From positions 2,170,001-2,234,000 of the forward strand of contig NZ_LT629797.1 of assembly GCF_900106015.1 (NCBI RefSeq): a stretch of DNA of 64,000 nt, given 5' to 3'. The notes below the pieces were generated by a model. The model was not told the origin of the DNA, did not search any database, and saw only the letters and a list, made by a program, of their open reading frames with translations. Below, piece by piece: positions 8,466 through 33,227 of this stretch. How positions within the stretch are numbered: the first letter of the stretch is position 1; every line of letters begins with the position of its first letter. A program made the position numbers and the translations under genes. This DNA comes from Pseudomonas sihuiensis (lineage in GTDB: Bacteria; Pseudomonadota; Gammaproteobacteria; Pseudomonadales; Pseudomonadaceae).

Positions 8466-9551
8466 AGAGTAATTGCGTCAGATTCGCAGCCCACGCGAGG
8501 GACGAAGTATGGGAAAATTCCCGGCTTCGTCACACCCACCGCACGTAAGGCCCGGCATGACCGATCTCTCCGCTCACACCCCGATTGTGTAATTAGATTG
8601 CTGCCATGAAACCGATAAAACACAATAAATAGCTTAAAAATCAATGAGTTAAGCAAGCCACGCCGACCTACGACATAACGCGAAGCGGGCCTGAAAAGGC
8701 GTGTTTTGGCGGGTGATTTACCCCAAATTTACCCCACGAAAACGCTTCGCAATCAGGGGCAAAGCGTGGAGTGTAATGTATTGAAGTCGTTTACCGCTGA
8801 CACCAGCAGGAGCCTGCGCGCCCCACTTGCAGGTGGCACCGGTGAGATCGGAGCAATAACGGTCTTGCTGTCTCCTCTCCCCCTATCATGCCGTTCTCGC
8901 CATTAAAGGGCTGCGCACGCTGGCGAAAAGATCGGCTATCGCTCCCTTTTTGCTGCTCTGGGGAGCACACGTGAGCAACCCCCTCGGCATGCTTCTTGAT
9001 AGCCAAGGTCACCGTTCTCCTGAATCAGATACACCAAGTCGTAGGTCTCGATCATGACGGCTGGACATGATTTTATTATTTTATTTTAAATATCAAACAC
9101 TTAAATAAAATTATCCTTGTTTTTAGCATTTTCTAGCATCAAGTGACGCACTCTCAGCCCCCCCTACAATGCTCTCTGTTTTCGATGACGTAGCAACTGT
9201 CATAGCAAACTACGGAAAACACCCGGATTGATCGATACATATCTCATCCGCTCAGCGTGTGCTGCCATAACTACTGATCGCTCCATCAAGCTCGCTCACT
9301 GGCACATAGCCCAGGGCGACAGATCGCGCTCGAGAGTTTTGTGAACCGCAGCCAGATCCAGCGCCACCAATTTGCCTTGCTCCTCGTATCAAGGTATCGT
9401 TAGTGCGCTCACAAATTGATCAAACTCTGCAAAAGAATGGCAGCGCATATATGACCAACTCCTCATTGGGCTTCACCCGAGAGCTCAGTCCCCCATAGAT
9501 CCAACTCGCACCAGGAATTCCATCCTTTGGCTTGCGAGAGGGCTCTATGCC
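8466..9551. other. gene-poor junction with probable gene remnants
   Basis: No convincing intact gene was found here. A tandem decamer ATTTACCCCA occurs at 8716-8725 and 8727-8736. A very AT-rich tract spans about 9060-9130, unlike the GC-rich neighbours. Minus-strand fragments read like broken coding sequence, for example IPGASWIYGGLSSRVKPNEE within about 9420-9546 and LAAVHKTLERDLSPWAMCQ about 9300-9380. I recognise neither. The stretch separates core DNA from the stress block, so it may be an old insertion or deletion scar. Confidence 0.4.
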
Positions 9552-11642
9552 ATGTCAATCAGCAGTAAAACCTTCAGCTTCGGTCAACTCGAAGCTTGTG
9601 CCGAAATTGGTTGGCTAGGTGACGTTGCACCCTATTCCGTTCTACTACGGCTGGGCCAAGGTAGTGCACTGGCCCGTTGTGAAGTTGCTCAGGGTGTCGA
9701 GCATCAGAGATTACAGACAACCTTCCTTAAACGATCCTACGCCCAAGGAGCTATGGCAAATCTTGCGCGTCGTGAAGATCAGCCTTCTGCAATCGACCTG
9801 GCCCATGCAGATTTTCTGCAGTCGCTTTTCGATCCAGTAGTTCGAGTATCCCCATCAACCTGCGTGAAACTCGATGTCCAAGTGCTTGAGGAGGATCCGA
9901 AGATAGATGCCAGGCTGGCGACTGCTTTGGCTGCGAGCCTTTGCCTGAGCTTGACCGGCCACGTTCAGGGGAGCCCCAAAGCGCTGGTTCAGCTCGCGAT
10001 TGCCAACGGTAGCTGCCGACTCAATCCGAGCCTGGATATGATTCCATCAGCACAGGCTAGCCTCTGGGTTTTCGGTGACACCGACCATCTGCTGCATGTC
10101 GATGGCAGCGCTCGCGAACTCGACGAGGCACTGCTGACCAAAGCGCTGGAAACTGCACACGAGTGCATCAAGAAAACCAGTCAAGTCCTGGGGGAACTTT
10201 CCAGCTTGGGAAAGCCTGACTTGGATACCCCCTCTGTGGATGCATCATCCTGTCCCGCTTTGCTCCACAAGGTTCGAGCCCTTGCGACACAGCCTCTGTT
10301 CGAGATTTTCTCCATCAAAGATGCGGAGAAACGAGACAGGAGGTGGGATGACCTACACAAAGCCGTCCAGCTCTCGCTCTGCCTGAATGACAACTATCCC
10401 GACCACCTGCAGAAAATCACGTCGTGCTTCAGGCAGGTAACCACGGACGTTGTTCGGTCTCGGATACTCGGCGGCCATCTGCGTCCCGACCAGCGTACGG
10501 CCGAGCAGCTGCGTCCCCGCAGCAAAATAGAGGTAGGCCATCACAGCAGAGCACATGGCTCGGCCAGCGTGGCGACCAACGGTTCAAGAACTCACGCCAC
10601 CGCCAGCTTGGGGCTGAATCGTTCGGCACTGGATAAAGTGCAGGGCGCAGCAGCAGAAGCATTCATCGCGCATGTTTACCTGAACTCTAAAGGCTCGCCC
10701 TCAGCGGTGAGTGCCGAAGCCACCAGCCGTTGGTTGACCAATGCGCTACGGCCGGCGATGCCTGCCGTTGAAAACTTTCCGTATGCCATCCGGCTGGACT
10801 GCGAGTACTGGGGAGACGCCTCTGCTTCGAAGCAAGTTTCACTTTGCGCCGCAACCCTTGCCTTGATGGATGCTGGCGTTCCTTTGAAAGCGCCTGTAGC
10901 GGCTGTCGAGGTTGGCCTTCTTCGTTCACCCTCACACTTCAGGGCGCTCAGTGAGCTCGATGATGTCGAACGACCAGCGTGCGACCTAACGGCCACTCTC
11001 GCGGGTACTCAGGCCGGCTTGACGGGCATCCATATACGCAGCCAAGGCGTCAAGCTTACTTCCGATATCTTGGCCGTCGTACTTCAGCAAGCTCGACAAA
11101 ATCGCTTGGAGCTGTTGCTCCGAATGGGCGATGCCTTGGCAACACCACGAACGCTCAACCCTCAGGTGCCAAGAGTACAGATCCTCAAGATATCGCCTAA
11201 TCAAACCGGTCTTCTGGTTGGGCGCGGAGGCACAACGGTTCGCGCCCTATGCGAGGACACTCGCAGCCAGATCGAAGTATTCCCAGATGGCCGCGTGCTG
11301 GTCAGTGCAGGCAATGACCTTTGTTTGCAACGCGCTGTTGCTGCCATAGAGATAACGCTTAAACCCATACGCGTAGGCCAGGTATATCAGGGAACCGTCA
11401 GCGGATTTACCGAGAGCGGCGCATTGATCACCCTGGCTCCAGGCCGTACAGGATTGCTGCCCGCGTCGGCCACCCTCAGCCCACAAGCTAGTCCCGAAAA
11501 GCAGTTCAAGGTGGGCGAGTCCGTGCGCGCCCTGTGCACGGACCTTGATAAACGTGGCCGCGCCTGGCTCTCGATCAAGGCGCTTTATGAACAAGAGGAA
11601 ATCGATGACCAACCCGACCCCAGCCCCCTCAGGCTTGCCTAA
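9552..11642 (+). CDS. divergent polynucleotide phosphorylase paralogue, predicted catalytically inactive
   Basis: A 696-residue protein with the full PNPase layout: RNase PH-like domain 1 (about 1-210), a helical linker, RNase PH-like domain 2 (about 330-530, with [20 protein letters not shown]), a KH domain (539-607, GRGG loop, [20 protein letters not shown]) and an S1 domain (608-680, [15 protein letters not shown]). In canonical PNPase the domain 2 active site is GDEDHLGDMDFK. Here the aligned stretch is [12 protein letters not shown] (471-482), so E. coli Asp486, Asp492 and Lys494 become Arg474, Thr480 and Thr482. The phosphate-site serine cluster NGSSS is changed to ASASK. RNA-binding domains look intact. 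It ends inside the region upstream of sthA. Probably an RNA-binding scaffold or regulator. Confidence 0.85.
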
Positions 11643-11715: not shown

Positions 11716-13110
11716 TTGACAACCTATAACTACGATCTTGTGGTAATTGGCTCTGGCCCAGCTGGTGAAGGCGCGGCGATGAATGCGGCCAAGGCCGGGC
11801 GCAAGGTGGCCGTGGTGGACAACCGCCCGCTGGTCGGCGGCAACTGCACCCACCTTGGCACCATCCCGTCCAAGGCGCTGCGCCACTCGGTGCGGCAGAT
11901 CATGCAGTTCAACACCAACCCGATGTTCCGCCAGATTGGCGAGCCGCGCTGGTTCTCCTTTCCTGACGTGCTGAAAAGCGCCGAGAAGGTGATCGCCAAG
12001 CAGGTCACCTCGCGCACCGGTTACTACGCGCGCAACCGCATCGACACCTACTTCGGCACCGCCAGCTTCGCCGACGAGCAGACCGTGGAAGTGGTCTGCC
12101 TCAACGGTGTAGTGGAAAAGCTGGTGGCCAAGCAGGTGGTCGTCGCCACCGGCTCACGCCCCTATCGTCCGGCCGACGTCGACTTCCGTCACCCGCGCAT
12201 CTACGACAGCGACACCATCCTCAGCCTCGGCCACACCCCGCGTCGGCTGATCATCTACGGCGCCGGGGTAATCGGCTGCGAATACGCCTCGATCTTTAGC
12301 GGCCTGGGCGTGCTGGTCGACCTGATCGACAACCGCGATCAGTTGCTCAGCTTCCTCGACGACGAAATCTCCGATGCGCTGAGCTATCACCTACGCAATC
12401 AGAACGTACTGATCCGCCACAACGAGGATTACGAGCGCATCGAAGGTCTGGAGAACGGGGTGATCCTGCACCTGAAGTCGGGCAAGAAGATCAAGGCCGA
12501 CGCGCTGCTCTGGTGCAACGGCCGTGCCGGCAACACCGACCAGCTGGGTCTGGAGAACATCGGTATCCAGGCCAATGAACGTGGGCAGATCCAGGTCGAC
12601 CAGCACTACCGCACCGAGATCAGCAACATCTACGCAGCTGGCGACGTGATCGGCTGGCCGAGCCTGGCCAGCGCCGCGTTCGACCAAGGACGCTCAGCGG
12701 CCGGCAGCATTATCGACAACGGCAGCTGGCGTTTCGTTGATGACGTGCCGACTGGCATCTACACCATTCCGGAAATCAGCTCGATCGGCAAGAACGAGCG
12801 CGAGCTGACCCAGGCCAAGGTGCCCTACGAAGTGGGCAAGGCCTTCTTCAAGGGCATGGCGCGGGCGCAGATCGCGGTCGAGCCGGTGGGTATGCTGAAG
12901 ATTCTGTTCCACCGCGAGAGTCTGGAAGTGCTGGGCGTGCACTGCTTCGGCTACCAGGCTGCGGAGATCGTCCACATCGGCCAGGCGATCATGAACCAGA
13001 AGAGCGAGGCGAACAGCATCAAGTACTTCATCAACACCACCTTCAACTACCCGACCATGGCCGAGGCCTATCGGGTGGCGGCGTTCGATGGACTCAACCG
13101 ACTGTTCTGA
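11716..13110 (+). CDS. sthA: soluble pyridine nucleotide transhydrogenase
   Basis: A 464-residue FAD-dependent enzyme that equilibrates NADPH and NADH in the cytoplasm. It has the FAD motif [38 protein letters not shown] (the redox-active CxxxxC is replaced by the SthA-type CTHLGT), a second Rossmann motif [15 protein letters not shown], and [24 protein letters not shown] chose the TTG at 11716, which has AGAGGGA upstream and gives exactly the family N-terminus ([14 protein letters not shown]). An alternative ATG at 11605 with AGAGGAA would add 37 Lys/Arg/Pro-rich residues overlapping the upstream gene. The first codons are less GC-rich than the rest, hinting at a mosaic gene. Confidence 0.93.
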
Positions 13111-13140: not shown

Positions 13141-13950
13141 ATGCTTAGCGAGCGATACAGGCTCAAGCAGGCAGAGATCAAAACGCGAGGCCTGCTGTCT
13201 TTCCCAAGCGATAGCACTGAGGATCTGCAGGCGGTTGCTGAACTCTCCGTAATGCTCAAGTGCCTGGAAGGAACTCGGGAATTCACTAGTCCGAGCTGTG
13301 GCTTAAAGATCGCCGTAGATCGGCATTTTTCGCCACGAATGCTCTATTACTTCCTTATAGGCGACTACGAACAGGGCGACCTGGAACTGATCCGCAAGCA
13401 TGTGCAAACCGGGGATAGAGCGCTTGAACTCGGCGGCGGCATAGGTGTAACGGGCTCGCTACTTGGGCAAGTTACCGGTCAACGCGTGACTGTCTGCGAG
13501 CCCAACCCGACTCTTGAGCCCTTGATAAGACGAACATTCAGCGCGAACGGACAACAGCTACGCCTCATACAGGCTGCTGCGGTCAAGGAGTCCGAAGGCG
13601 ATGGGCGCACGACACTGAACGTGGCTCCTGGCTACTGGTGGTCATCGCTGCTTTCGGTACATGGCGCAACCAGCCTGCAAGTTCAGTCCATTCGGCTGTC
13701 ACGCCTGCTGGAGCTCACTGAGGCGAATGTCCTACTGGTCGACATCGAAGGCTATGAGCAACACCTATTCGAGGGATGCGACCTGGCACGAGTCGACACG
13801 CTGATCATCGAAATTCACGCCCCTAGTTTGGGCGCCCCGAACAGCAGCGCCCTCCTCACCGAGCTGATTCGTCGCGAGTTCGATCTTGTCGACTTTGCCG
13901 CACAGAGCTTTGTATTCAAGAGATCACAACGCAAGGAGCAAGTGAGATGA
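13141..13950 (+). CDS. FkbM-family SAM-dependent methyltransferase
   Basis: A 269-residue protein. It has a SAM-binding region with GDRALELGGGIGVTGSLL near residue 95 and VTVCEPNPTLEPLIRR, then the FkbM hallmark LLVDIEGYEQHLFEG and LIIEIHAP. FkbM enzymes are usually O-methyltransferases acting on sugars, lipids or natural products; the substrate here is unknown. A good AGGAG site precedes the ATG. The stop overlaps the start of the following patatin-like gene by four bases (ATGA), so the two are translationally coupled. Confidence 0.8.
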   Translation: MLSERYRLKQAEIKTRGLLSFPSDSTEDLQAVAELSVMLKCLEGTREFTSPSCGLKIAVDRHFSPRMLYYFLIGDYEQGDLELIRKHVQTGDRALELGGGIGVTGSLLGQVTGQRVTVCEPNPTLEPLIRRTFSANGQQLRLIQAAAVKESEGDGRTTLNVAPGYWWSSLLSVHGATSLQVQSIRLSRLLELTEANVLLVDIEGYEQHLFEGCDLARVDTLIIEIHAPSLGAPNSSALLTELIRREFDLVDFAAQSFVFKRSQRKEQVR

Positions 13951-14798
13951 CGAAACCTTCTGCGTTGATAGTCGAAGGCGGCGCCATGCGTGGCATATTT
14001 GCCAGCGGCGTACTGGACGCCTTTCTCGAAGAGGACTATCGACCGTTCGATATGGCCATAGGCGTTTCAGCGGGCTCGACCAATCTCGTTGGCTACCTGG
14101 CCGGCAACCATGGTCGCAGCCGTCGGATTCTGACCGAATACGCGACGCGCAGAGAGTTTATCGACCCGACTCGTTTTCTGCGGGCAGGACACCTTGTCGA
14201 CGTCGGCTGGCTCTGGGAGGCGACCAAGAACACCGTGCCACTGGACGTGCAACGTTTTGCAACCTGCGGTACGCCGTTGCTCGTTGTCACCACCGAGGTT
14301 GCCACCGGGCAGGCGCATTACCTGCAAGCTACGCCGGAGAACATGGATCAGGTATTCCCCGCATCCTGCGCTCTGCCTCTGGTCTATCGGGCATTTCCGA
14401 CCTACAACGGAATTGCGATGACCGATGGTGGCATCGCCGACTCGATCCCAGTGCTGGAGGCGTACAGAAGAGGCGCCCGGGACATGACGATAATCCTCTC
14501 TCGCCCCCTGGGCTATCGAAAGAAGGCCAGCCGCATGCCCTGGCTGACTGCCAGCCTGATGCGACGCCATCCGCAACTTGCCACAGCCATGCTGGCTCGC
14601 GCCCAGCGTTACAACGAAGCGCTGACATTCATAGAGCGACCTCCAGAAGACTGCCGGGTTAGGGTGCTAGCCCCCGACTTGGAATTTCCTGTCGGCCGCT
14701 TAACCCGGGATCTGGGGCGGCTGCAGAAGGGCTATGAGCAGGGCCACCGCGCCGCCAGCAAGATGCTGCGTTGCTTGAAAAGTACTACTGCCGCATAA
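13947..14798 (+). CDS. patatin-like phospholipase (YjjU/RssA type)
   Basis: A 283-residue protein with the patatin features in order: oxyanion loop GGAMRGIFASGVLDAF, the nucleophile elbow GVSAGS (Ser near residue 43) and the catalytic DGG motif in MTDGGIADSIPV (Asp near 157). It resembles E. coli YjjU and other bacterial patatin-like esterases that cleave acyl chains from lipids. No signal peptide is seen, so it is probably cytoplasmic or membrane-peripheral. It is coupled to the FkbM gene by a four-base overlap, which suggests a common lipid-linked substrate, but that is inference. Confidence 0.82.
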   Translation: MTKPSALIVEGGAMRGIFASGVLDAFLEEDYRPFDMAIGVSAGSTNLVGYLAGNHGRSRRILTEYATRREFIDPTRFLRAGHLVDVGWLWEATKNTVPLDVQRFATCGTPLLVVTTEVATGQAHYLQATPENMDQVFPASCALPLVYRAFPTYNGIAMTDGGIADSIPVLEAYRRGARDMTIILSRPLGYRKKASRMPWLTASLMRRHPQLATAMLARAQRYNEALTFIERPPEDCRVRVLAPDLEFPVGRLTRDLGRLQKGYEQGHRAASKMLRCLKSTTAA

Positions 14799-14936: not shown

Positions 14937-15320
14937 ATGACAGATGATCAATTCACGCCACTGATCGATTACCTCAAAGCACGCTATGAGCTGATCGCCG
15001 CAATGATCAAGACCCTTGAAGCAGGCAAGCCGTTGATCCCACCTCAAGATGGCGAGCAACATCCCAACGGGACTCATGATCGAGAAGATTATGAACGACT
15101 ACTGCAAACCAGTCGGTCGCAACTAGGCATCGAGCTAAATCGCCTGCAGGCAGCGCTATCGCGCGTACATACCAGCAACTATGGATTGTGCTGCCGTTGC
15201 AATTTGCCAATGGAGGAGGCCCGGCTCATTCGTGATCCGGCCGCAGCACTGTGCCAAGAGTGTCTTGATGAGCTGGCCGAAGAACGTGAGCGAGCTAAAC
15301 GCCTCTTCGCCGGGCGGTAA
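14937..15320 (+). CDS. DksA/TraR-like zinc-finger protein (first of two)
   Basis: A 127-residue protein with an N-terminal helical region followed by the C4 zinc finger CCRCNLPMEEARLIRDP...CQEC. The finger is typical of DksA/TraR proteins, which enter the RNA polymerase secondary channel and modify the response to ppGpp. The coiled-coil tip does not obviously carry the DksA DxxDxA motif, so its role may differ. A GAGG site precedes the ATG. It lies directly upstream of a GroEL-like gene, matching a stress-regulation setting. Confidence 0.78.
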   Translation: MTDDQFTPLIDYLKARYELIAAMIKTLEAGKPLIPPQDGEQHPNGTHDREDYERLLQTSRSQLGIELNRLQAALSRVHTSNYGLCCRCNLPMEEARLIRDPAAALCQECLDELAEERERAKRLFAGR

Positions 15321-15393: not shown

Positions 15394-17019
<1,626 letters not shown>

Positions 17020-17032: not shown

Positions 17033-17073
17033 AGAGAACACCCTGGTGAGCATCGCTGAGCCAGGAGTTCTCT
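17033..17073 (+). other. hairpin between groEL paralogue and dgkA
   Basis: A two-part stem, AGAGAAC (17033-17039) with GTTCTCT (17067-17073) and an inner CCTGG/CCAGG pair (17042-17046/17061-17065), lies 14 bp after the chaperonin stop. It has no T-tract, so it may be an mRNA end-stabilising or attenuation structure rather than a classical terminator. Confidence 0.45.
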
Positions 17074-17189
17074 ATCTGAGAACATGTCAGACGCGCGTCC
17101 GCAATTTACTCACGCAAGCCAGTCTGCATTCTCATCTACCCCTGAAAAATCTGAGAGGGGTCAACTCAATGTATCCACAGGAACAGGCA

Positions 17190-17576
17190 ATGAGCAGCAG
17201 TAACGAGCTCGACGCAAAATCACTCAAGGGGCAAAGGGGGCTGACACGGATCTCGCGAGCAGCCGGTTACTCAATCGCAGGTCTTCGTGCCGCCTTCATC
17301 GGCGAGGCCGCCTTTCGCCAGTTGTTACTGCTCAACGCGGCGCTGATACCACTGGCATTCACGATGGACGTCAGCCGTATCGAGCGCGTCTTGCTGATAA
17401 TCGTGCCTATGATGACGCTGATCGTGGAGCTTCTGAACTCTGCAATTGAAGCCGCAATTGACCGCATCTCGACAGACCTACACCCTCTCTCGAAACAGGC
17501 CAAGGATATGGGCAGCGCCGCACAGATGTTGGCCCTGGCTGTCGTGATTGTAACCTGGGCAACCATTCTGATTTAG
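17190..17576 (+). CDS. dgkA: diacylglycerol kinase
   Basis: A 128-residue integral membrane enzyme with about three transmembrane segments. It shows the family features GLTRISRAAGYSIAGLRAAF and EAAFRQ near the N-terminus, and the active-site stretch VELLNSAIEAAIDRIS. It phosphorylates diacylglycerol to phosphatidic acid using ATP. Diacylglycerol is made when phosphoglycerol groups are taken from phospholipids, so a DgkA beside two LtaS/MdoB-fold enzymes makes biochemical sense. I chose the ATG at 17190 (AGGAACAGG upstream); longer in-frame starts at 17169 and 17046 add unconserved residues. Confidence 0.9.
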   Translation: MSSSNELDAKSLKGQRGLTRISRAAGYSIAGLRAAFIGEAAFRQLLLLNAALIPLAFTMDVSRIERVLLIIVPMMTLIVELLNSAIEAAIDRISTDLHPLSKQAKDMGSAAQMLALAVVIVTWATILI

Positions 17577-21615: not shown

Positions 21616-21664
21616 GCCAAACCTCAAATTTATAGAATCGTCAAAATAGTGCGGCGCCCCGCCA

Positions 21665-22279
21665 TCAAGGGCGTATCGGCAGCCTCAGCTCTTTAGGTGC
21701 GTTCGACCGGCTCACGAGCAACTTAATCGCGTAGCCAAGCAAGGCTCCCCAGCAGTACAGAGCAATAAACGGATCGAGCAGATAGTCCCAATAATTCGGA
21801 GAGGGCTTAAGGCCCAGGCTGAATGCCAAAGTCGCAAATCCCAGCATGCAGGCCCCCAACCAGTTCCTCAGCATCAACAGCCCTAAGGTCAGCAGGCCTA
21901 TGATCAGGATCAATGGCCGCGGGTTGTAGCCCAGCCGATAGGGGTCAAAGTAGGACAGCCCCATCGTGGCGGGATAGAGAAATAGCGCCAAAGCCGCTAT
22001 CAGGACCAACACCTGCAAGCGGATAGTGCGATCCAGTTGCTCCACCAGTCCCATTTTTACCGCTGCAACGAACGTCAGTGCCACCAACGTGGTGATGGCC
22101 ACGTCATCCGTGAAACTGCGCATATAAGCCGCCAGCGAAAGTCCGTCCACGGGAATGAAACTGATCCCCAGCAGCACGACCAGACGGACAAACTGCAGGG
22201 CCGGGCTGAAGCCAAGCCTCGGAATAATGGCGAATGCCAGTAGCGCAAAAGTCAAATGTGCTTGCCAAAGTTCAAGCAT
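21665..22279 (-). CDS. small polytopic membrane protein, sialidase partner
   Basis: A 204-residue protein with about six to seven hydrophobic segments and a short basic end (KELRLPIRP). No catalytic motif is recognised. Its ATG at 22279 shares one base with the stop codon of the sialidase-like gene (TGATG), so they are translationally coupled. The tight pairing suggests a membrane partner for the BNR-repeat protein, perhaps anchoring or transport of a sugar. Function is unknown. Confidence 0.65.
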   Translation of the reverse strand: MLELWQAHLTFALLAFAIIPRLGFSPALQFVRLVVLLGISFIPVDGLSLAAYMRSFTDDVAITTLVALTFVAAVKMGLVEQLDRTIRLQVLVLIAALALFLYPATMGLSYFDPYRLGYNPRPLILIIGLLTLGLLMLRNWLGACMLGFATLAFSLGLKPSPNYWDYLLDPFIALYCWGALLGYAIKLLVSRSNAPKELRLPIRP

Positions 22280-23577
22280 CAGAGCTGCTCCTCAAGCCAG
22301 GCGTCATTGAAACTGACGTGTTTGATGAAGGTGTTGTTCCAGGAATAGACAAGGTGATAGAGCCCATCGCCGCTCTTGATGAAGTACGGGTATTCATATT
22401 CGAAGTCGCAGCCGTGATCCTTGCACACCCGCTGGTCTAGATTTGCCAGAAACTCATCGACAAGGCTCTCTCTGCGCGGTCCGCTGGAACGGAGGAACTT
22501 GTCGCCGATAATTTCTCGATAAACCTCAAGACTGAATGGATTGCCATCCGGATCGGGAGACTCGTCCAGATCAATCACTGGCTTCCACAAATCGAGACCG
22601 GAATCGGTTCCCATCAGCCGCAGTCGAAAACGTCCATCTTCAAGATCATTCAGAGCAACCAGCAATCCGTGATCAGGCGTAGCCACTGCTGCAAGCGAGG
22701 AATTTGGGTTGGCGGGATCGACAGGATAAGGCTCACTCCAGGTTTGCCCCGCGTCCTCGGTTCGACTGGCAAGGACCTTGTGATGAGTGTCACCCGCATA
22801 GCGCAACATCGCCACGGCATTGTGCTCGTCCATCGGTACTATCGTGGGTTGCAGGGAGTGCTTGCCCCTGCTGATACGGGTTTTATCGACAACGACGCCG
22901 GCCGGACTGATGTACAGGTACTCGGCAAACTTGCCCAGAAATTCGTGATAGACCGGCAGTCCGATGGTGCCGTCACGATGGAACACTGGCGCGTTGCGTA
23001 CGAGCGTGCTGATGTTCAAGAAAGGGGTAGTGATCAATTGCTTGGGTGCCGACCAGTTTTCGCCAAGGTCATCCGAGTACATGGCATTGATGGCGCTGCC
23101 AGCCCAGCCACCAATGGACACAGAGACGTAGAAAAGCCACAGCCGGTTGTCGGGAGCCAGCGCGATAACAGGGTTGCCCAGCTTGCGTATGTGTTTCTGG
23201 GTCGCTCTCTCGGTAGATTCCCGCGTAGCAAGAACCACCTCCTCTCCCCACTCGGCTTCTTGGGCGTCGTAACGCGAGCCGCGAACCTGAACATCTGCGG
23301 CGCCCTCTCTGGAGCCGGCAAACCAGACCGCCATAAGTCCGCCATCAGGCAGAGATGCGACTGAGGATGCATGAACGAACTCGTCAAGATCCGAAGAGGC
23401 GAAACGGCTGCTGTAGAAAGGAGTCTGGGTGACGCCAATTAGCTCAACGGGCCGTTCCGCCATGGCAAAACCGGGCACGTGGCGATCAGGGTGGAGCCAC
23501 CAGGCGCAAGCAAATACAGCAAAGAGGGAGACAACAGCCAAGCACGAGGGCAGAAAACCGAACTTCTGAGGACGCAT
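22279..23577 (-). CDS. BNR-repeat exo-sialidase-like protein, membrane anchored
   Basis: A protein of about 432 residues. It starts MRPQKFGFLPSCLAVVSLFA, a signal anchor or signal peptide ending near residue 30. The body reads as a six-bladed sialidase fold with at least two Asp boxes: YSDDLGENWSAPK and SRTEDAGQTWSEPY. An early Arg-containing motif FYSSRFASSDLDEFVHASS and the VWFAGSREGAADVQVRG stretch (R-I-P-like Arg, catalytic Asp region) support the family of predicted neuraminidases. It would act in the periplasm or on the outer surface. The substrate could be sialic, pseudaminic or another nonulosonic acid. In-frame starts upstream (23589, 23607) are less likely. Confidence 0.78.
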   Translation of the reverse strand: MRPQKFGFLPSCLAVVSLFAVFACAWWLHPDRHVPGFAMAERPVELIGVTQTPFYSSRFASSDLDEFVHASSVASLPDGGLMAVWFAGSREGAADVQVRGSRYDAQEAEWGEEVVLATRESTERATQKHIRKLGNPVIALAPDNRLWLFYVSVSIGGWAGSAINAMYSDDLGENWSAPKQLITTPFLNISTLVRNAPVFHRDGTIGLPVYHEFLGKFAEYLYISPAGVVVDKTRISRGKHSLQPTIVPMDEHNAVAMLRYAGDTHHKVLASRTEDAGQTWSEPYPVDPANPNSSLAAVATPDHGLLVALNDLEDGRFRLRLMGTDSGLDLWKPVIDLDESPDPDGNPFSLEVYREIIGDKFLRSSGPRRESLVDEFLANLDQRVCKDHGCDFEYEYPYFIKSGDGLYHLVYSWNNTFIKHVSFNDAWLEEQL

Positions 23578-24064
23578 TGAAAAAACCATAGTTGCACAAA
23601 CACGCAAAACTTCCTGCGGATGGCGGGAAGCGACCAGAGACCAGCCTCAGGGACAAAGGCATGGTAGAGGGAGTGTTTGGCTGATTCTTACAAGGGTCTG
23701 ACTCGACTGCGTAAATAGACGGGGACTGGCCAATTGGCATGCAACGGCAGCCGAGGATCTTGGAGTAGTGAGTTCGCGGATGCAACCTCGAACGCTAATG
23801 CTCGCCCAGCGGAAGACTATGCTCGCCCCGACCTCACTCAACTGAACCCCTTATAAAACCTGGGCTCCAGGCGATACCCACGGATTCATAAATGGACAAC
23901 AACGCAACATTTGGTCAAAAAAAGCCCACAACAAGGCAGTTGCTGCTATCATGATGCCCCGTCCAACGACCCGATACCTAAAAATATCTCGTAGCGATGA
24001 TGAATTTCTGCTCCCTCCCGGCTGTTACGCCGCCATAAGTTACCCGCCCGCTTTTTAGCGCTAC

Positions 24065-24196
24065 TGCCTGCTGCCGTTTCACTGCAGGCAATTGGTGTGC
24101 GCCGTCGACCACGCACGACGGTTCTTCTTACTCCTTACCGCCAGCCCTGCTGAATTTCGGCCAGACCGTATTCGTTCGCCTGTATTTCCAGGGCTG
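24065..24196 (+). promoter_or_regulatory. hairpin-rich 5' leader of nhaB
   Basis: The long region before nhaB folds locally into three stems: a perfect 7-bp stem 24065-24071/24084-24090, a 6-bp stem 24102-24107/24116-24121, and an 8-bp stem 24142-24149/24189-24196 that closes just upstream of the start region. Ion-responsive RNA elements are known upstream of some cation antiporter genes; I cannot match this one to a named class. Confidence 0.4.
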
Positions 24197-24240
24197 TGGT
24201 GTTGCGCCGATTTCATTCGCAACGACTAGAAGAGGCTTCC

Positions 24241-25746
24241 ATGCCCCCAACGACAACCGCTGCCTTTGCGCACAACTTCCTTGGCCATGCGCCAACTTGG
24301 TACAAGCAGGTGATTGTCGCCTTCCTGCTGCTCAATCCGTTCTGCTTGTGGCTACTCGGCCCGCAGGTCACCGGCTGGCTGTTGATTGCCGAGTTCATTT
24401 TCACCCTGGCCATGGCTCTCAAGTGCTACCCGCTGCTACCTGGCGGGTTGTTGGCAGTGGAGGCCTTGTTGCTTGGAATGACGACTCCTGAAGCGTTGTA
24501 TGCCGAGGTGACCACCAATCTTCCGGTCATTCTGCTGCTGATGTTCATGGTCGCCGGCATCTACTTCATGAAGAACCTGTTGCTGGTGACCTTCACGCAG
24601 ATCCTGGTCGGGGTGCGCTCCAAATACTTGCTGGCTCTGCTGTTCAGCATGACTGCGGCACTGCTATCGGCATTTCTCGATGCACTGACGGTCACGGCCG
24701 TCATTATCAGCGTGGCGGTGGGGTTCTTTTCCGTCTACCACAAGGTCGCCTCAGGCAAGGGCTACCATCACGGCGAACACAACCATAACTCCGACAAAGA
24801 GGTCATCGAGCTGCATCGAGAGGACCTCGAAGGGTTCCGTGCCTTTCTGCGCAGCCTTCTAATGCATGCTGCAGTTGGTACAGCTCTTGGCGGCGTATGC
24901 ACTCTGGTGGGCGAACCACAGAACCTACTGATCGCGAAGACCGCAGGCTGGGACTTCAAGGATTTCTTCACCCTGATGGCACCAGTGTCCATGCCAGTAC
25001 TGGCCGCCGGCCTGTTAACTTGTGTTGCCTTGGAAAAACTGCAGTGGTTTGGCTATGGCGCCAAGTTGCCCAAGCCCGTACGCCATGTGTTGGAGGAATT
25101 TGCCGCCAGTGAGAAATCCAGGCGCGGCCCCAGCCAGCGAGCCGCGCTGATAATCCAAGCCATCGCCGCACTGGTGCTTGTGCTGGGCCTCGCCCTTCAC
25201 ATTGCCGAGGTAGGCCTGATCGGCCTACTGGTAATCATCCTGATCGCATCGTTCAACGGCGTGACCGACGAACACCAGATCGGCAAGGCCTTTCAGGAGG
25301 CCCTGCCATTCACCTCGCTGCTGGTGGTGTTTTTTGCCATCGTCGCAGTGATTCACGAGCAACACTTGTTCAGCCCGATCATCACCGCAGTGCTGGCTCT
25401 ACCGATTGAACAGCAACCGGGGATGTTCTTCCTCGCCAACGGCGTACTGTCGATGATCAGCGACAACGTGTTCGTTGCAACCGTCTACATCAGCGAAATC
25501 AAGCAAGCGCTGGATGCCGGCACCATAGACCGGACGCACTTCGAGCGCTTGGCCATCGCCATCAACACCGGCACCAACCTGCCCAGCGTGGCTACGCCCA
25601 ATGGCCAGGCTGCCTTCCTCTTCCTGCTAACGTCTGCCATCGCACCGCTGGTGCGTCTGTCCTACGGACGCATGGTGGTAATGGCATTGCCCTATACCTT
25701 GGTAATGGGCGGCGTCGGCCTGTTGGCAGTGATTTTTCTCGTTTAA
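24241..25746 (+). CDS. nhaB: Na+/H+ antiporter NhaB
   Basis: A 501-residue polytopic protein with about 11-12 transmembrane segments. Recognisable NhaB stretches are [21 protein letters not shown] at the start, [71 protein letters not shown] and [23 protein letters not shown]. It exchanges external protons for internal sodium at the inner membrane. I chose the ATG at 24241 (AGAAGAGG upstream) because it gives the family start; an upstream in-frame start at 24196 is not needed. It stands before a SulP carrier, possibly coupling sodium export and sodium-driven bicarbonate import. Confidence 0.95.
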
Positions 25747-25807: not shown

Positions 25808-27295
25808 ATGCTTCAGAAACTCAAGCAAGACTGGTTCTCAAACATACGCGGCGATTTGCTCGCCGGCATCGTCGTTGCTCTGGCCCTCATCCCCGAGGCC
25901 ATCGCCTTCTCCATCATCGCCGGCGTCGACCCCAAAGTGGGTCTGTACGCCTCGTTCTGCATTTCTGTAGTAATCGCCTTTGTTGGTGGTCGCCCCGGAA
26001 TGATTACAGCAGCAACGGGCGCCATGGCGTTGTTGATGATCACACTGGTGAAGAACCATGGCCTGGAATACTTGCTCGCGGCCACGTTGCTCACAGGTGT
26101 ACTGCAGATCGTCGCGGGCTACCTCAGACTAGGCTCACTCATGCGATTCGTTTCGCGGTCAGTGGTTACCGGCTTCGTCAATGCGCTAGCCATTCTGATT
26201 TTCATGGCCCAGTTGCCTGAACTGACCAATGTCACCTGGCATGTGTACGCCATGACCGCCGCCGGTCTGGGCATTATTTATCTGTTTCCCTATGTACCAC
26301 TGGTAGGCAAGGCCATTCCCTCGCCGCTGGTTTGCATCGTGGTGCTGACGGCCATCGCCATGTATTTCGGCATGGATATCCGCAATGTCGGCGATATGGG
26401 CCAGTTGCCGGACACCCTGCCCATCTTCCTCTGGCCGGACGTACCGCTGACCTTCGAGACCCTGGCGATCATCTTCCCCTATGCCGCCGCCCTGGCAGTG
26501 GTCGGCCTGCTGGAATCGATGATGACCGCAACGATCGTCGATGACCTGACCGACACCAACAGCGACAAGAACCGCGAGTGCAAGGGCCAGGGTGTGGCCA
26601 ATATCGCCTCCGGCCTGCTCGGCGGCATGGCCGGGTGCGCCATGATCGGGCAGTCGATCATCAACATCAAATCCGGCGGCCGCACTCGCCTTTCAACGCT
26701 GTCGGCAGGTGTTTTCCTGCTGCTGATGGTGGTTTTCCTGGCCGAATGGCTGACTAAAATCCCGATGGCTGCTCTGGTCGCGGTAATGATCATGGTCGCC
26801 ATCGGTACCTTTAGCTGGGATTCGCTGCGCAACCTGAAGAAACACCCGCTGTCGACCAATATCGTCATGGTGGTAACCGTCATCGTCGTCGTGGCCACGC
26901 ACAACCTGGCATACGGTGTGCTGGCTGGCGTGCTGCTGGCGGCCATGTTCTTCGCCAATAAGGTCGGCCATTACATGCACATCGGTTCCTCGGTTGACAA
27001 CGATGGCATAAGCCGCACTTACAACGTCACTGGCCAGGTGTTTTTCAGCTCGGCGGACAAGTTCGTAGCCGCATTTGATTTCAAGGAAGCCCTGGAAAAG
27101 GTCACCATCGACCTTACTCATGCACATTTCTGGGACATCACTGCAGTGGCAGCGCTGGACAAGGTAGTCGTCAAGTTCCGCCGCGAAGGTACTGAGGTCG
27201 AAGTGCTCGGCCTGAACGAGGCCAGCGCCACCATCGTCGACCGCTTTGGCGTACATGACAAACCAGACGCCGTAGACAAACTGATGTCCCACTAA
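25808..27295 (+). CDS. SulP-family anion transporter with STAS domain, BicA-like
   Basis: A 495-residue protein with about 10-12 membrane segments. It opens with [30 protein letters not shown], the SulP signature region, and has [25 protein letters not shown] in the core. A C-terminal STAS domain spans about residues 390-490 ([35 protein letters not shown]). The sequence character resembles sodium-dependent bicarbonate carriers (BicA) more than sulfate permeases, but substrate cannot be fixed by eye. It follows nhaB by 61 bp on the same strand. A strong hairpin (27316-27323/27329-27336) lies after the stop. Confidence 0.85.
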
Positions 27296-27385: not shown

Positions 27386-28234
27386 ATGACAGCTGTCATT
27401 TCCTGTATTGACGGATCGCCGTCTTCAGCCGCCGTATGCGACTACTCCGCATGGGCCAGCGTGCGCCTCGCCGCCCCCCTGACCCTGGTTCATATCCTGG
27501 AAGAAACACCGAAAGCCCCTACCGACTTTACCGGCAGCATTGGCCTGGGTAGCCGCGAGCATTTGCTGCAAGAGCTCGCGGAGCTTGACGAGAAACGTGG
27601 TCGCTTGGCGCGCGAACACGGTCAGCACCTGCTGGAAGCTGCCAAGCATCGCCTCGACCAACTTGGCATCATGCATCCCAAAGCGGTACAGCGGCATGGC
27701 AACCTGGTCGACAGCCTGAAGAAGATGGAAGACGACATCCGCCTGCTGGTCATCGGCCGCCAGGGCGAGCACAGCGAAAATCTTTTCGAGCACATAGGTG
27801 GTCACGTCGAGAACGTCATACGCACGCTGCACCGCCCAGTCCTCGTGGTTCCGACCGACTTCGTGATGCCGCAGTGCTTTCTGGTCGCTTTCGATGGCAG
27901 TGCCAACGGCCGTCGCGTGGTTGAGCGTCTGGTTCAGAGTCCACTGCTCAAGGGCCTCGACTGCCACGTGCTGATGGTCGGCGAGCCATCAACCGAACAT
28001 CAGGCGCAACTCGACTGGGCAACTGGCCAATTGCAGCAGGCCGGCTATACCACCTACTCGAAAACCTGCCAGGGTGATGTCGAGGATGCGCTGGAAAGCT
28101 ATTGCCAGGACCAATTCATCAGCCTTCTGGTCATGGGGGCTTACGGTCACTCGCGGATTCGTCAGTTCCTGGTCGGCAGCACCACCACCAACATGCTGCG
28201 CCGGGCCAAGCTGCCCCTGCTGATGTTGCACTGA
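27386..28234 (+). CDS. tandem-domain universal stress protein (first of two)
   Basis: A 282-residue protein made of two UspA-type domains. It begins TAVISCIDGSPSSAAVCDYSAWAS (domain 1). Domain 2 carries the nucleotide-binding signature MGAYGHSRIRQFLVGSTTTNML (G-x2-G-x9-G-S). The equivalent in domain 1 (IGRQGEHSENLFEHIGGHVENVI) is degenerate. Such proteins support survival under starvation, anaerobiosis or envelope stress in Pseudomonas, usually by unknown means. The ATG has GAGGAA upstream. It is a clear paralogue of the gene at 29655. Confidence 0.9.
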   Translation: MTAVISCIDGSPSSAAVCDYSAWASVRLAAPLTLVHILEETPKAPTDFTGSIGLGSREHLLQELAELDEKRGRLAREHGQHLLEAAKHRLDQLGIMHPKAVQRHGNLVDSLKKMEDDIRLLVIGRQGEHSENLFEHIGGHVENVIRTLHRPVLVVPTDFVMPQCFLVAFDGSANGRRVVERLVQSPLLKGLDCHVLMVGEPSTEHQAQLDWATGQLQQAGYTTYSKTCQGDVEDALESYCQDQFISLLVMGAYGHSRIRQFLVGSTTTNMLRRAKLPLLMLH

Positions 28235-28369: not shown

Positions 28370-29530
28370 ATGCCCGAGGCACCTATATCGCCAAGCATCA
28401 ACTATCTCCGCAACGACTCCAGCCTGCATCGCCTGATGTTGGAACTGCTGGAAAAAGCCGATATCCGCATAGGTGGAGATCGCCCCTGGGATCTGCAGCT
28501 CAATGGCCCTGGCCTGCCCGAACGCGTATTCGCCCAAGGCAATCTGGGACTTGGCGAGGCCTACATGGAGGGCCTTTGGGACGCTCCGCAGCTCGATGAG
28601 TTCTTCCATCGACTGCTCGCAGCCCACCTCGACCAACACGTACAGCCTTTGCGGCTGATCTTCCATGGACTGCGCACGCGCCTAGTCAACCTGCAAAGCT
28701 TCAGACGCGCCTGGCAGGTGGGCGAAGCTCACTACGATCTGGGCAACGACTTCTATGCAGCCATGCTCGACCCGCGCATGACCTACACCTGCGGTTACTG
28801 GAATAAAGCGGCGACCCTGGCCGAGGCGCAAGAGGCCAAGCTGGATATGATCTGTCGCAAGCTCAAACTGGAGCCCGGTATGCGCCTGCTCGATATCGGC
28901 TGTGGCTGGGGCAGCCTGATGGGGTTTGCCGCCGAGCATTACGGGGTCGAGTGCATAGGCGTGACCATCTCCAAGGAGCAGGCCGCCTGGGCCAAACAGC
29001 GCTATGCGGGTCTGCCGCTGGAGTTTCGCCTGCAAGATTACCGTGAAGTCGAAGGCCAGTTTGATCGGATTGCCAGCGTGGGCATGTTCGAACACGTGGG
29101 GCGCAAGAATCACCGCACCTTCATGGAGGTTGCACATCGCTGCCTTGCCGACGATGGCTTGTTTCTGCTGCACACTATCGGCAAGAACATGCGCCACAGC
29201 ACACCGGACCCCTGGATCGACAGGTACATCTTCCCCAACGGGGATCTGCCGTCAGCTGGCCAGATCGGTGATGCCGCGGACAATCTTTTCGTAGTCGAGG
29301 ATCTGCATAACTTCGGTGCCGACTATGACCGCACGCTCATGGCCTGGTACGAAAATTTCGAACTATCCTGGCCCAGGTTCTCTGACGAACTCGGCGAGCG
29401 TTTCTATCGCATGTGGCGTTATTACCTGCTGTCGTGCGCTGGAGCCTTTCGCGCGCGCGATATCCAGCTTTGGCAGTGGGTGATGAGCAAAGAGGGTGTC
29501 CCAGGAGGCTACTCACGGGTTGTGATGTAG
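28370..29530 (+). CDS. cfa: cyclopropane-fatty-acyl-phospholipid synthase
   Basis: A 386-residue protein that adds a methylene group from SAM to unsaturated acyl chains of membrane phospholipids. It has EAHYDLGNDFYAAMLDPRMTYTCGYW, the SAM motif LLDIGCGWGSLMGFAA, GVTISKEQAAWAKQR, DYREVEGQFDRIASVGMFEHVG and the C-terminal YYLLSCAGAFRARDIQLWQWV. Length matches Cfa. The ATG at 28370 has AAAGAGGAA upstream. It is flanked by two universal stress genes, which fits acid, salt or stationary-phase membrane protection. Confidence 0.95.
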   Translation: MPEAPISPSINYLRNDSSLHRLMLELLEKADIRIGGDRPWDLQLNGPGLPERVFAQGNLGLGEAYMEGLWDAPQLDEFFHRLLAAHLDQHVQPLRLIFHGLRTRLVNLQSFRRAWQVGEAHYDLGNDFYAAMLDPRMTYTCGYWNKAATLAEAQEAKLDMICRKLKLEPGMRLLDIGCGWGSLMGFAAEHYGVECIGVTISKEQAAWAKQRYAGLPLEFRLQDYREVEGQFDRIASVGMFEHVGRKNHRTFMEVAHRCLADDGLFLLHTIGKNMRHSTPDPWIDRYIFPNGDLPSAGQIGDAADNLFVVEDLHNFGADYDRTLMAWYENFELSWPRFSDELGERFYRMWRYYLLSCAGAFRARDIQLWQWVMSKEGVPGGYSRVVM

Positions 29531-29654
29531 CACCGCGATTGCGGGGTGCGATTACCCGGCACCTCTGGTAGGTTTGCTGCATGGGGCTGCCAATTCCGTG
29601 CGTTTCCTATCCGCACTTCCCCATGACGCAATGCACCAATACAAGGAAAACGTT

Positions 29655-30503
29655 ATGACCTATGTGATGGCTTGCATCGACGGCTCTCCTTCTGCCACCG
29701 CAGTATGCGACTACGCGGCCTGGGCTAGCCTGCGACTCGATTGTCCCCTGGCATTCCTGCATGTTCTCGATGAGAACCGCTACCCAACCAACAGTAACCT
29801 CAGCGGCAACATCGGCCTGGGCAGCCGCGAGCATCTGTTGGAAGAACTGGCCGAACTCGATGCCCGGCGCAGCAAACTCGCTCTCGAAGAAGGCAGGATC
29901 ATGCTGGAGGCTGCGAAACAACGGGCGCAGCAAGACGGTATCAGCAGTCCGCTGGTCAAGCAGCGTCATGGCGACTTGGCTGAAACCTTGGTGGAGCTGC
30001 AAGAAGAAATCCGCCTCGCAATCATCGGTAAGCAAGGCGATCACACCAGTGCCGGCGCACAGGTCGGCAGTCACCTGGAAAGTGTATTGCGTACACTCAG
30101 CCGTCCGGTGCTGGTGACCCCCACCGCCTTCAAACAGCCTGAAAGCGTGATGCTCGCCTATGACGGCCGGCCGACCATGGATAAGGCCGTCCAACTGATT
30201 GCGGGCAGCCCATTGTTCAAAGGCTTGCCCATCCATCTCGTGCTGGTCGGCGCGGATACCAACGACGCCTGGGAGCAACTCAAGTCCGCGAAAGAGAAAC
30301 TCAAGGCTGCGGGCTTCGATGCCCAGATAGCCATCCGTGCTGGCGAAGTGGAACCTACCCTGCACGCTTACCAGAACGAGCATGCCATCGATATGATCGT
30401 GATGGGTGCGTACAGCCGCTCCCGTATCCGTGAGTTCCTGGTCGGCAGTACTACTACCAAGATGCTCAGCACCTCCCGCACCCCTCTTCTGCTGTTGCAT
30501 TGA
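29655..30503 (+). CDS. tandem-domain universal stress protein (second of two)
   Basis: From the ATG at 29655 (AAGGAAAACGTT upstream) a 282-residue protein is read, starting MTYVMACIDGSPSATAVCDY. Domain 2 has MGAYSRSRIREFLVGSTTTKML, the ATP-type signature. It is the same length as and strongly similar along its length to the protein at 27386, indicating tandem duplication with cfa between the copies. An earlier in-frame start (29574) would add an unconserved leader. The next gene, a DksA-like protein, starts 12 bp after the stop. Confidence 0.9.
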   Translation: MTYVMACIDGSPSATAVCDYAAWASLRLDCPLAFLHVLDENRYPTNSNLSGNIGLGSREHLLEELAELDARRSKLALEEGRIMLEAAKQRAQQDGISSPLVKQRHGDLAETLVELQEEIRLAIIGKQGDHTSAGAQVGSHLESVLRTLSRPVLVTPTAFKQPESVMLAYDGRPTMDKAVQLIAGSPLFKGLPIHLVLVGADTNDAWEQLKSAKEKLKAAGFDAQIAIRAGEVEPTLHAYQNEHAIDMIVMGAYSRSRIREFLVGSTTTKMLSTSRTPLLLLH

Positions 30504-30515: not shown

Positions 30516-30866
30516 ATGAGCGATGAGATCGACCTGGAGCACTTCCGCGACTTGCTACAGGCCCGCTTGGCGGAACTGGACAGCCTTGAATCCGCAGCGC
30601 AATCGCGGGACTCCATCGAGTTGGATCAGAGCAAGGTAGGTCGACTCTCGCGCATGGATGCCCTCCAGCAACAAGCCATGCTGGATGCCAACCGGTTCCG
30701 TGGCAGACGGGAGCGCCTGCGCATTGAGGCAGCGTTTCGACGCATTGCCGAAGGCGATTATGGCTACTGCGCCCAGTGCGATGAACCTATAGCCCTTGGC
30801 AGGCTGAACTTCGACCCGGCAACGCCGCTATGCATCGCGTGCGCGAACAAAGCCGACGATAATTAG
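30516..30866 (+). CDS. DksA/TraR-like zinc-finger protein (second of two)
   Basis: A 116-residue protein with an N-terminal coiled-coil region (FRDLLQARLAELDSLESAAQ), SRMDALQQQAMLDANRFRGRR, and the zinc finger YCAQCDEPIALGRLNFDP...CIACA. This is the short TraR/DksA type with four cysteines. It is 12 bp behind the second universal stress gene, so it is probably co-transcribed. It differs from the protein at 14937 and probably acts on RNA polymerase under stress; no target can be named. Confidence 0.82.
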   Translation: MSDEIDLEHFRDLLQARLAELDSLESAAQSRDSIELDQSKVGRLSRMDALQQQAMLDANRFRGRRERLRIEAAFRRIAEGDYGYCAQCDEPIALGRLNFDPATPLCIACANKADDN

Positions 30867-30937: not shown

Positions 30938-31465
30938 ATGCAACTGATTACTGAATTGATTCACCCCCAACTCAAATCCAGGCAAGGCAGAGTATTTCGT
31001 CGCCACGCCGCCCGCGGTATTGTTCTGCGAGAAGAGCAAATTCTGTTGCTCTTCACAGAACGATACAACGACTTCAGCTTCCCCGGCGGCGGCCTCGATA
31101 CTGACGAGGACATCATCGAGGGGCTTGTACGCGAGCTCGAGGAAGAGACTGGCGCTCGCGACATACAAGTACTCCAGAACTTCGGCTACATCGAAGAGTA
31201 CCGACCTTACTGGAAGCCGCAGTACGATCTGATGCACATGACCTCGCACTTCTACGTGTGCGATATAGCGCAACAGCTGCAGCCGGTCAGAATGGAAAGT
31301 CACGAGATCGCCAACGGTATGCGTCCCATCTGGGTCGATCTGCATGAAGCCATTGCGCATAACGAGGCAGTGATGCGTCGCCAGGAATCCTCAATGGGTC
31401 AATCAATCCAGCGAGAGACCTTCATGCTACGAAGAGTGGCTACCCAACTCCTGACGACCTGCTGA
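30938..31465 (+). CDS. NUDIX hydrolase
   Basis: A 175-residue protein with an intact Nudix box, GGGLDTDEDIIEGLVRELEEETGA (pattern Gx5Ex7REUxEExGU, near residues 50-73), preceded by FSFP. NUDIX enzymes hydrolyse nucleoside diphosphates linked to another group; the substrate is not predictable here. No SD as strong as in the neighbours is visible. The stop is 16 bp before the first copy of the 164-bp repeat. Confidence 0.85.
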   Translation: MQLITELIHPQLKSRQGRVFRRHAARGIVLREEQILLLFTERYNDFSFPGGGLDTDEDIIEGLVRELEEETGARDIQVLQNFGYIEEYRPYWKPQYDLMHMTSHFYVCDIAQQLQPVRMESHEIANGMRPIWVDLHEAIAHNEAVMRRQESSMGQSIQRETFMLRRVATQLLTTC

Positions 31466-31480: not shown

Positions 31481-31644
31481 GGGCTGACCTGAACCATGGC
31501 AGATGCCAATGAAGTAGCCAGTTAAAACTGGCCAGCAAGGAGAGCTCTGGCTAATGAAGTACATCGGGTCGGCATCCTGCCGGTTCGCACTTCATTAACC
31601 CAGCGTTCGGAGAACATTTCGTTAGCGGCCACCTGCCAACCTTT
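31481..31644. repeat. 164-bp diverged repeat, copy 1
   Basis: The sequence from GGGCTGACCTGAACCATGGC onward matches the copy at 33065-33227 across its whole length with scattered substitutions, in the same orientation. It folds into a 6-bp hairpin with TAAA loop (31517-31532) and a long stem 31552-31560/31589-31597. The right 23 bp overlap the 3' end of the minus-strand gene at 31622. Differences between copies keep the pairing, which suggests a conserved RNA or DNA structure. Confidence 0.85.
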
Positions 31645-33071: not shown

Positions 33072-33227
33072 CCTGAGCCATGGCAAATGCCAATGAAGTA
33101 GCCTGTTAAAACAGGCGAAGAAGGAAGGTTCTGAGCTAACGGAGTGCATGGGGTCAGCATCCTGCCTGTTCGCACTTCGTTAGCCCAGAGAACGGAGAAT
33201 ATTTCGGTAGCGGCCACTTGCCAACCC
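33065..33227. repeat. 164-bp diverged repeat, copy 2
   Basis: Same orientation as copy 1 at 31481-31644. The hairpin with TAAA loop is at 33101-33116 (GCCTGT/ACAGGC, where copy 1 has GCCAGT/ACTGGC). The long stem pairs 33135-33147 with 33172-33184 over 13 bp with one G-U. The loop segment GGTC-GCATCCTGCC-GTTCGCAC is nearly unchanged between the copies. Together the copies flank the leader plus two-gene cassette. Confidence 0.85.

Follow-up and report, generated by a model that had tools for sequence, protein, structure and literature searches.

An island-borne PNPase-family pseudoenzyme of Pseudomonas sihuiensis that may hold RNA through its KH domain

What does a protein with the complete layout of polynucleotide phosphorylase (PNPase) do once the catalytic site is gone? 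The question is raised by a pnp-like gene in a stretch of 64,000 nucleotides of Pseudomonas sihuiensis, hereafter the window, which corresponds to positions 2170001-2234000 of its contig in a genome of 5.48 Mb. The gene (window positions 9552..11642, + strand) is an uninterrupted open reading frame that encodes 696 amino acids. PNPase is usually seen as an enzyme that now and then plays a protective part without degrading RNA, and a natural family that has lost the catalytic site and retained an RNA-gripping part would amount to an evolutionary separation of both roles. A first-pass annotation of this DNA had described the gene as a long-lived, RNA-binding pseudoenzyme. Our best reading overall, to which we give nearly an even chance, is that of a PNPase-family pseudoenzyme carried on a transferred island, which would hold RNA via its KH domain without degrading it.

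The PH1, helical, PH2, KH and S1 architecture of PNPase is present in the protein, according to Pfam and to a predicted model. Two RNase_PH stretches, the helical domain (residues 237-315), KH and S1 (residues 607-676) score over the Pfam cut-offs, and RNase_PH_C falls below it. The bounds of PH1 (residues about 7-140), of its C-terminal part (about 141-205), of PH2 (about 321-533) and of KH (about 541-603) were read from the alignment and the model. The NCBIfam equivalog cut-offs are not reached (305.7 vs 471 for NF008805 and 299.1 vs 525 for TIGR03591). A Shine-Dalgarno-like GAGAGG, read by eye, lies 5' of the ATG at 9552. The canonical pnp of the same genome is found at C1:2937156-2939237, its product being 28% identical to the pnp-like protein, and RNase PH also matches at C1:3840509-3840901. 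In line with the genus, 119 of the 121 plasmid-collection records that match the recA of this genome are from Pseudomonas, with 84.6-85.3% identity among the matches listed.

To locate the catalytic residues, we aligned E. coli Pnp, the window genome's own Pnp and 113 database PNPases (115 canonical rows) with the paralogue family. The latter is represented by 9 rows, i.e. 8 full-length members and one piece of an interrupted copy, and the counts below cover the rows spanning each site. The ligands of the catalytic metal in E. coli are D486, D492 and K494, and a D492G mutant is inactive (PMC2723993; here and below, PMC accessions stand for excerpts of the papers). This triad is intact in 115/115 canonical rows and in none of the 9 family rows, where position 486 holds Arg (8/9) or Lys (1/9, in the genome G108), position 492 has V, T or I, and position 494 has T, V or I. 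The dead metal site of the window protein (codons 474-482, 10971..10997, +) carries R474, T480 and T482 at these positions, exactly the alignment proposed by the first-pass annotation. Multiple alignments agree on this placement and show no second Asp/Asp/Lys set at the site, which rules out that the active site has moved elsewhere. The phosphate site, to which we take R398, R399 and H403 to belong, is also degraded: R398, H403 and S439 are lost in all 9 rows, and R399 survives in G108 only. The earlier statement that the phosphate-binding serines are altered thus stands for S439, but a Ser is still aligned with S438 in 5 of the 9 rows. As for the FFRR aperture, which stacks RNA bases in E. 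coli PNPase (PMC2723993), F77 and F78 are lost in 9/9 rows, R79 is kept in 4/9 and R80 in 8/9. R93, R97 and R100, invariant in the canonical rows, are replaced in the family.

Because the metal triad, most phosphate-site residues and the aperture phenylalanines are lost, phosphorolysis is very unlikely. The protein is, with little doubt, a pseudoenzyme in this respect, and we infer from the residues that it would be capable of neither phosphorolysis nor polymerisation. Since F77/F78 and R93/R97/R100 are missing, it is also doubtful that it threads RNA in the way of PNPase.

The pnp-like protein belongs to a small family. Six further clusters were identified in the protein database, at 72, 71, 46, 40, 39 and 38% identity, and the next matches (<=30%) are canonical PNPases. 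These full-length relatives, together with the intact reading frame, rule out a sequencing error or a pseudogene. A profile search gave 7 clusters, the query included, at 1181-1259 bits, with the next match at 445 bits; this number of clusters is a lower bound (8000 candidates scored, 120 listed), and the protein of G108 is absent among the matches listed. The member from G108, a genome of the same genus, scores 730.6 bits vs <=394 for canonical PNPases. A further carrier, G1246, belongs to another genus of the same family. The 8 full-length members form one clade of about four lineages that are 34-50% identical. In an IQ-TREE tree of 44 rows, a single branch separates them from all other rows, with a support of 100/100 and in 200/200 bootstrap trees; the branch order inside the clade is not settled, and long branches and deviant composition were flagged. 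Because the members form a single clade, a single loss of the catalytic site and a long subsequent divergence are probable. The first-pass annotation had asked whether the losses are fixed among homologues; they are found in all 9 rows covering the site, one of which is the piece of the interrupted copy. Automatic annotation nevertheless puts an enzyme name on these proteins, "polyribonucleotide nucleotidyltransferase" being the source name of three of the six relatives.

The family is rare. Only the window's genome carries the gene among 57 genomes of relatives, and the carriers are 2/398 in the genus (the second being G108) and 1/369 in the class (the window's genome). At E<=1e-150, they are 1/398 in the phylum (the window's genome), 2/398 in the taxonomic family (the window's genome and G1246) and 1/56 in the genus of G1246 (G1246 itself). 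These genome draws overlap, all counts except the last include the window's genome, and a member more divergent than that of G108 (1.5e-219) could escape the 1e-150 threshold. The count for the genus rules out an ordinary duplicate common in the genus. Three carrier genomes are known in total, and a canonical pnp is present in all three, a point that the first-pass annotation had raised as a check. Its concern about frameshifts in relatives was half borne out: one of the three genome copies is interrupted, but by an insertion sequence (IS)-type sequence and not by a frameshift. This copy, in G1246, is split between two contig ends, and the outer sequence reads by eye as an IS3-type transposase. 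Frames are full-length in the other 8 of the 9 family sequences. A scan of genome contigs revealed no family member, the sole match being in Clostridium, at the KH/S1 end and with 28% identity, and none was confirmed in viral contigs. Plasmids have PNPases at 25-28% identity in the best 20 of 44 records, phages at 23-30% in the best 20 of 22, and none of the 44 or of the 22 reaches 60%.

If catalysis is gone, which part of the protein is under selection? For each pair of sequences, we subtracted the identity of the PH core from that of KH. Among the 22 family pairs that are <55% identical, the difference ranges from +17.0 to +39.2 points (mean 24.8), and its minimum over all 28 family pairs is +7.5; the 22 pairs stem from about four lineages and are hence not independent. 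The 129 canonical PNPases form 8,256 pairs, in which the difference averages -10.8 and does not exceed +13.0; this control has a single pair <45% identical, and its closest band (45-55%, 380 pairs) spans -23.6 to +10.0. KH is thus the most conserved domain of the family, and PH1, the fastest-changing part of the core, has diverged most. All 8 members share the same residue at 27 of the 58 KH columns, and at 12 of these the residue is one rarely found in canonical PNPases. Of the columns that are near-invariant in canonical PNPases, all 8 members keep 5/11 in KH (mean kept 0.62), 8/22 in S1 (mean kept 0.63), 5/49 in PH1 and 14/60 in PH2. The KH loop that had been described as intact is indeed so in the window protein (VGRGG, codons 556-560, 11217..11231, +, the GxxG being kept as GRGG), and is GRGG or GRAG across the family. 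KH carries a net charge between 0 and +5 in the family (8 members), compared with 0 in E. coli and -2 in the window genome's Pnp. K571 has become R in 9/9 rows, so that a basic residue is kept, and K566 has become G in 9/9. Given the 8/22 columns kept in all members, the S1 fold is probably kept as well.

The nucleotide sequences indicate that these changes accumulated in a gene that was retained. Between the window gene and that of G108, 110 of 130 fourfold sites differ, as do 40% of second codon positions, and in a neutral simulation of this divergence none of 1000 replicates was free of stop codons. Since synonymous sites are saturated, second positions are less changed, and no neutral replicate stays open, the gene is maintained, with constraint centred on KH. 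Together with the losses in 9/9 rows and the single clade, this agrees with the long-lived pseudoenzyme proposed earlier.

Several studies provide precedents for PNPase as a holder of RNA. The protein is able to hold small RNAs (sRNAs) non-destructively (PMC4748814), and in the E. coli PNPase-Hfq-RNA carrier complex KH and S1 hold the RNA off the active site, K571 being an RNA-contacting residue of KH (PMC8294330). The catalytic mutant S438A of the E. coli enzyme still pulls down mRNA fragments (PMC7145675), and a KH-S1 fragment of P. aeruginosa PNPase binds RsmY/Z alone (PMC4773659). With KH as the most conserved domain, RNA binding through it is likely in the pnp-like protein. That holding or shielding RNA is its main role is a more tentative proposal, plausible rather than probable. 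Under this proposal, the protein would keep the PNPase protomer fold and probably self-assemble, the oligomer would present several KH domains that grip single-stranded RNA, and this RNA would be held outside the channel, neither threaded nor shortened. The outcome could be an RNA-holding or shielding factor, i.e. a permanent protective mode, or a competition for RNA ends that are otherwise attacked by the cell's real PNPase. The broader scenario, in which the island-borne family shields RNA or serves as a decoy by way of KH and reprograms host RNA decay under stress, against or beside host PNPase and the degradosome, is possible, with the balance against it.

A number of observations weigh against RNA holding. 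In S1, F635 and H650, presumably RNA contacts according to the 1997 S1 structure, are F and H in 115/115 canonical rows and are replaced in 9/9 family rows, H650 always by Pro. The family has L, V or I in place of F638, and I is also found in 33/115 canonical rows. The basic-loop residue R684 is kept only in P0001, P0003 and P0004, and R658 and R686 are absent in 9/9 rows; K657, R681 and Q682 are little informative, as these positions are also variable in the 115 canonical rows. The earlier idea of RNA binding is therefore supported mainly for KH, the most conserved domain with K571 replaced by R, but S1 has lost its contacts even if its fold is probably kept. Because K566, R658 and R686 are gone in all rows and R684 remains in three only, the protein is not simply an Hfq-type carrier. 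In that E. coli complex, moreover, the S1 basic loop outweighed KH residues (PMC8294330). The dead S438A mutant failed to restore the stability of CyaR and RyhB, catalysis being the main stabilising factor in E. coli (PMC7145675), and deletion of KH-S1 in P. aeruginosa stabilised RsmY/Z, so that KH-S1 serves decay there (PMC4773659). Finally, the rarity of the gene and the interruption of one of three genome copies also fit weak selection, and pnp-like has the lowest full-length identity among the island genes (36% to G108).

Other explanations account for part of these data. The gene may be a relic on its way out, the selfish or hitch-hiking cargo of an island with weak or no function, which would fit its rarity, the IS-interrupted copy of G1246 and the fast divergence. 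We consider this rather unlikely, given the saturated synonymous sites with intact frames, the absence of stop-free neutral replicates and the concentrated, family-specific signature of KH, which is unlike drift. The protein could also insert into the host PNPase ring, as a mixed-trimer or dominant-negative subunit that lowers or redirects its activity. A canonical pnp is available in all three carriers, and the PNPase fold is kept in the predicted model. However, this is less likely because PH1, the fastest-changing part of the core, has lost most near-invariant columns (5/49 kept, with 14/60 in PH2). A surface fitting the host PNPase would be expected to be conserved, which is a weak counter-argument, and overall we regard the mixed trimer as unlikely.

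A further alternative is an inert, exosome-like ring that serves as a scaffold and would pass RNA on to a separate nuclease or helicase, or that would be a competitor of PNPase for RNase E. In animals and yeast, the Exo9 ring has indeed lost phosphorolysis and depends on nucleases that associate with it (PMC5735172), and the domain order of PNPase is kept here. On the other hand, the losses at the aperture (F77/F78) and at R93/R97/R100 make PNPase-like threading doubtful, and no nuclease was recognised beside pnp-like among the 19 Pfam-scanned open reading frames of the island stretch, nor an associated helicase. The contact with RNase E in E. coli is made by the backbone at residues 327-331 (PMC2723993) and is not readable from sequence. 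Such a scaffold seems quite unlikely. The invariant, family-specific residues of PH2 (e.g. L406W, L412R, V428D and F493A) and the R/K at 486 could instead point to a new chemistry: with a basic residue (R/K) at 486, R at 412 and W at 406, the altered pocket would bind a different ligand or catalyse a different reaction. As the PH cores diverge faster than KH and no metal-ligand set is recognisable, we find this highly improbable. RNA holding through KH seems the simplest account, and we retain it.

How does this protein compare with known systems? It shares domain order, length and, in the predicted model, fold with bacterial Pnp; it differs in having lost the metal triad, the aperture phenylalanines and the S1 contacts, and in that KH is conserved instead of the PH core. 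RNase II enzymes are hydrolytic and of another fold than PNPase. Their inactive Dis3/RNase II relatives in fungi act as RNA-binding proteins (PMC8097288), and in this they would resemble the pnp-like protein, but they belong to another family and are eukaryotic. The eukaryotic Exo9 core is likewise an RNase PH-fold ring that lost phosphorolysis (PMC5735172), whereas the pnp-like protein is a single chain with KH and S1, is bacterial, stands beside an active PNPase, and has no known partner nuclease. The PNPase-Hfq-sRNA carrier of E. coli shows PNPase as a non-degrading holder via KH/S1 (PMC8294330, PMC4748814), but that carrier combines an active enzyme with a diversion of the RNA by Hfq, whereas in the present family it is the site that is dead, and K566, R658 and R686 are absent from 9/9 rows. 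Inactive PH rings are therefore already known from the exosome and inactive RNase II members from fungi, as is a protective mode of PNPase, and a pseudo-PNPase is a variant on these. Among the matches listed in the open-licence PMC literature (titles and abstract starts), we found no bacterial PNPase pseudoenzyme; a search of the same literature for a paper on a pnp-like/sthA island found none either. This is consistent with the first-pass annotation, which knew of no described inactive bacterial PNPase beside sthA. The family is a clean case in which to ask whether a PNPase scaffold is useful just by holding RNA.

The first-pass annotation recognised the pseudoenzyme and proposed that it binds RNA, which we would now place mainly in KH, but missed that the gene is part of a mobile island. 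Between about 9 and 32 kb, the GC content (2-kb windows) lies at 0.52-0.61; it is mostly 0.60-0.63 before and 0.59-0.68 past 33 kb, a modest difference. Between a chemoreceptor gene and pnp-like, about 1.1 kb of lower GC content (8466-9551) has no open reading frame of >=90 amino acids and is possibly the island edge. A search for cis-regulatory RNA in 8400-9650 gave no Rfam match, and the promoter-like sites in 8400-9700 number 2 vs 1.2 expected, with no clear promoter. Downstream of pnp-like lies a second sthA, encoding a Si-specific NAD(P) transhydrogenase (11716..13110, +), with a likely TTG start preceded by AAGAGGG. A longer reading frame from 11545 is probably over-extended, and a basic N-terminal tail on the island SthA is ruled out by the likely start at 11716. 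Then come, on the same strand, genes for an FkbM-type methyltransferase (13141..13950), a patatin-like phospholipase (13947..14798), a DksA-like protein (14937..15320, below the NCBIfam cut-off), an island GroEL (15394..17019) and a DgkA-type diacylglycerol kinase (17046..17576). The - strand encodes two membrane sulfatase-fold proteins (17631-19508 and 19573-21627), whose best NCBIfam match is LtaS-type and far below cut-off, followed by a 204-residue protein and a BNR_2 protein (21665..23607). The remaining genes, again on the + strand, encode an NhaB Na+/H+ antiporter (24196..25746), a SulP anion transporter (25808..27295), a first universal stress protein (Usp; 27386..28234), a Cfa-type cyclopropane fatty acid synthase (28370..29530), a second Usp (29574..30503), a TraR/DksA zinc-finger protein (30516..30866) and, near the end of the lower-GC island, a Nudix protein (30938..31465).

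Much of this content recurs in the other two carrier genomes. The pnp-like gene lies directly before sthA in 3/3 loci (window, G108 and G1246). In G108 and G1246, sthA is followed by a DksA/S1-type gene, and the same stretch has sulP, usp, cfa and the sulfatase-204-residue-BNR_2 block; of these two islands, nhaB and dgkA were seen in G1246 only. Between the window and both islands, SthA, SulP, Cfa and the second sulfatase-fold protein are 72-92% identical, BNR_2 65-83%, and Usp, the 204-residue protein, DgkA and the DksA-like protein about 49-79% at the best hit. The two pieces of pnp-like in G1246 show 53% (287 residues) and 29% (384 residues) identity to the window protein. Common descent of all island genes is unsupported for sthA: in a comparison of five of six sequences, the housekeeping copy of G1246 not being recovered, the SthA encoded by the window's island shares 94% identity with the housekeeping SthA of the same genome and 81-83% with its counterparts on the other two islands, and identities among the island copies are 79-83%. 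Because of this 94% identity, sthA may have been replaced or captured anew in the window, by gene conversion or a new capture. BNR_2 was discarded as an island marker, since it is a common gene (84/298 genomes).

The SulP-Usp-DksA part of the island is also found on the conjugative plasmid pGRT1, beside recombinases. The SulP, Usp and DksA-like proteins of the window are 56-90% identical to those of this pGRT1 module, the SulP protein reaching 90%; cargo modules of this type are known from Pseudomonas plasmids and transposons (pGRT1, Tn6603 family). In contrast, the 19.5-kb stretch of pGRT1 covered here lacks pnp-like, and the island adds pnp-like, sthA, groEL, dgkA, cfa, nhaB and the sulfatases. 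According to PMC7765201, the cargo of transposons includes an anion transporter and UspA, and that of Tn6603 is without demonstrated function. We found no direct repeats joining both island ends. The pnp-like gene is thus part of a horizontally transferred island of duplicated stress and envelope genes. As this island also holds copies of DksA-like, Usp, GroEL, Cfa, SulP, NhaB and SthA, its content suggests that the pnp-like protein might act under stress. RNA-decay machinery can thus travel as cargo with stress-type genes.

Some minor observations concern these loci. The third gene of the pnp-like/sthA row has, in G1246 (L070:12665-13252, -), a DksA-like part followed by an S1-like part read by eye, and this protein has no match among plasmids; in G108 (L066:13650-14234, +), it has an S1 domain and an N-terminal part without DksA match. 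A 13-kb contig of G208 (L100) groups relatives of the second sulfatase, the 204-residue protein and BNR_2 but has no other gene of the island. The last residues of the island GroEL (15394-17019) are LSKTGML, and not the Gly-Gly-Met tail that GroEL proteins usually have. In G034, of the same genus, the sole PNPase match (C1:1868452-1870514) is split over two frames (residues 6-435 and 435-678), and this canonical pnp looks frameshifted or mis-sequenced. Elsewhere in the window, an rmf RNA motif is found at 2115-2249 (Rfam RF01755, 124.9 bits). A C4 antisense RNA (32237-32323), at the start of an apparent prophage or tailocin, is flanked by a pair of 69-nucleotide direct repeats that are 86% identical (31481-31549 and 33065-33133).

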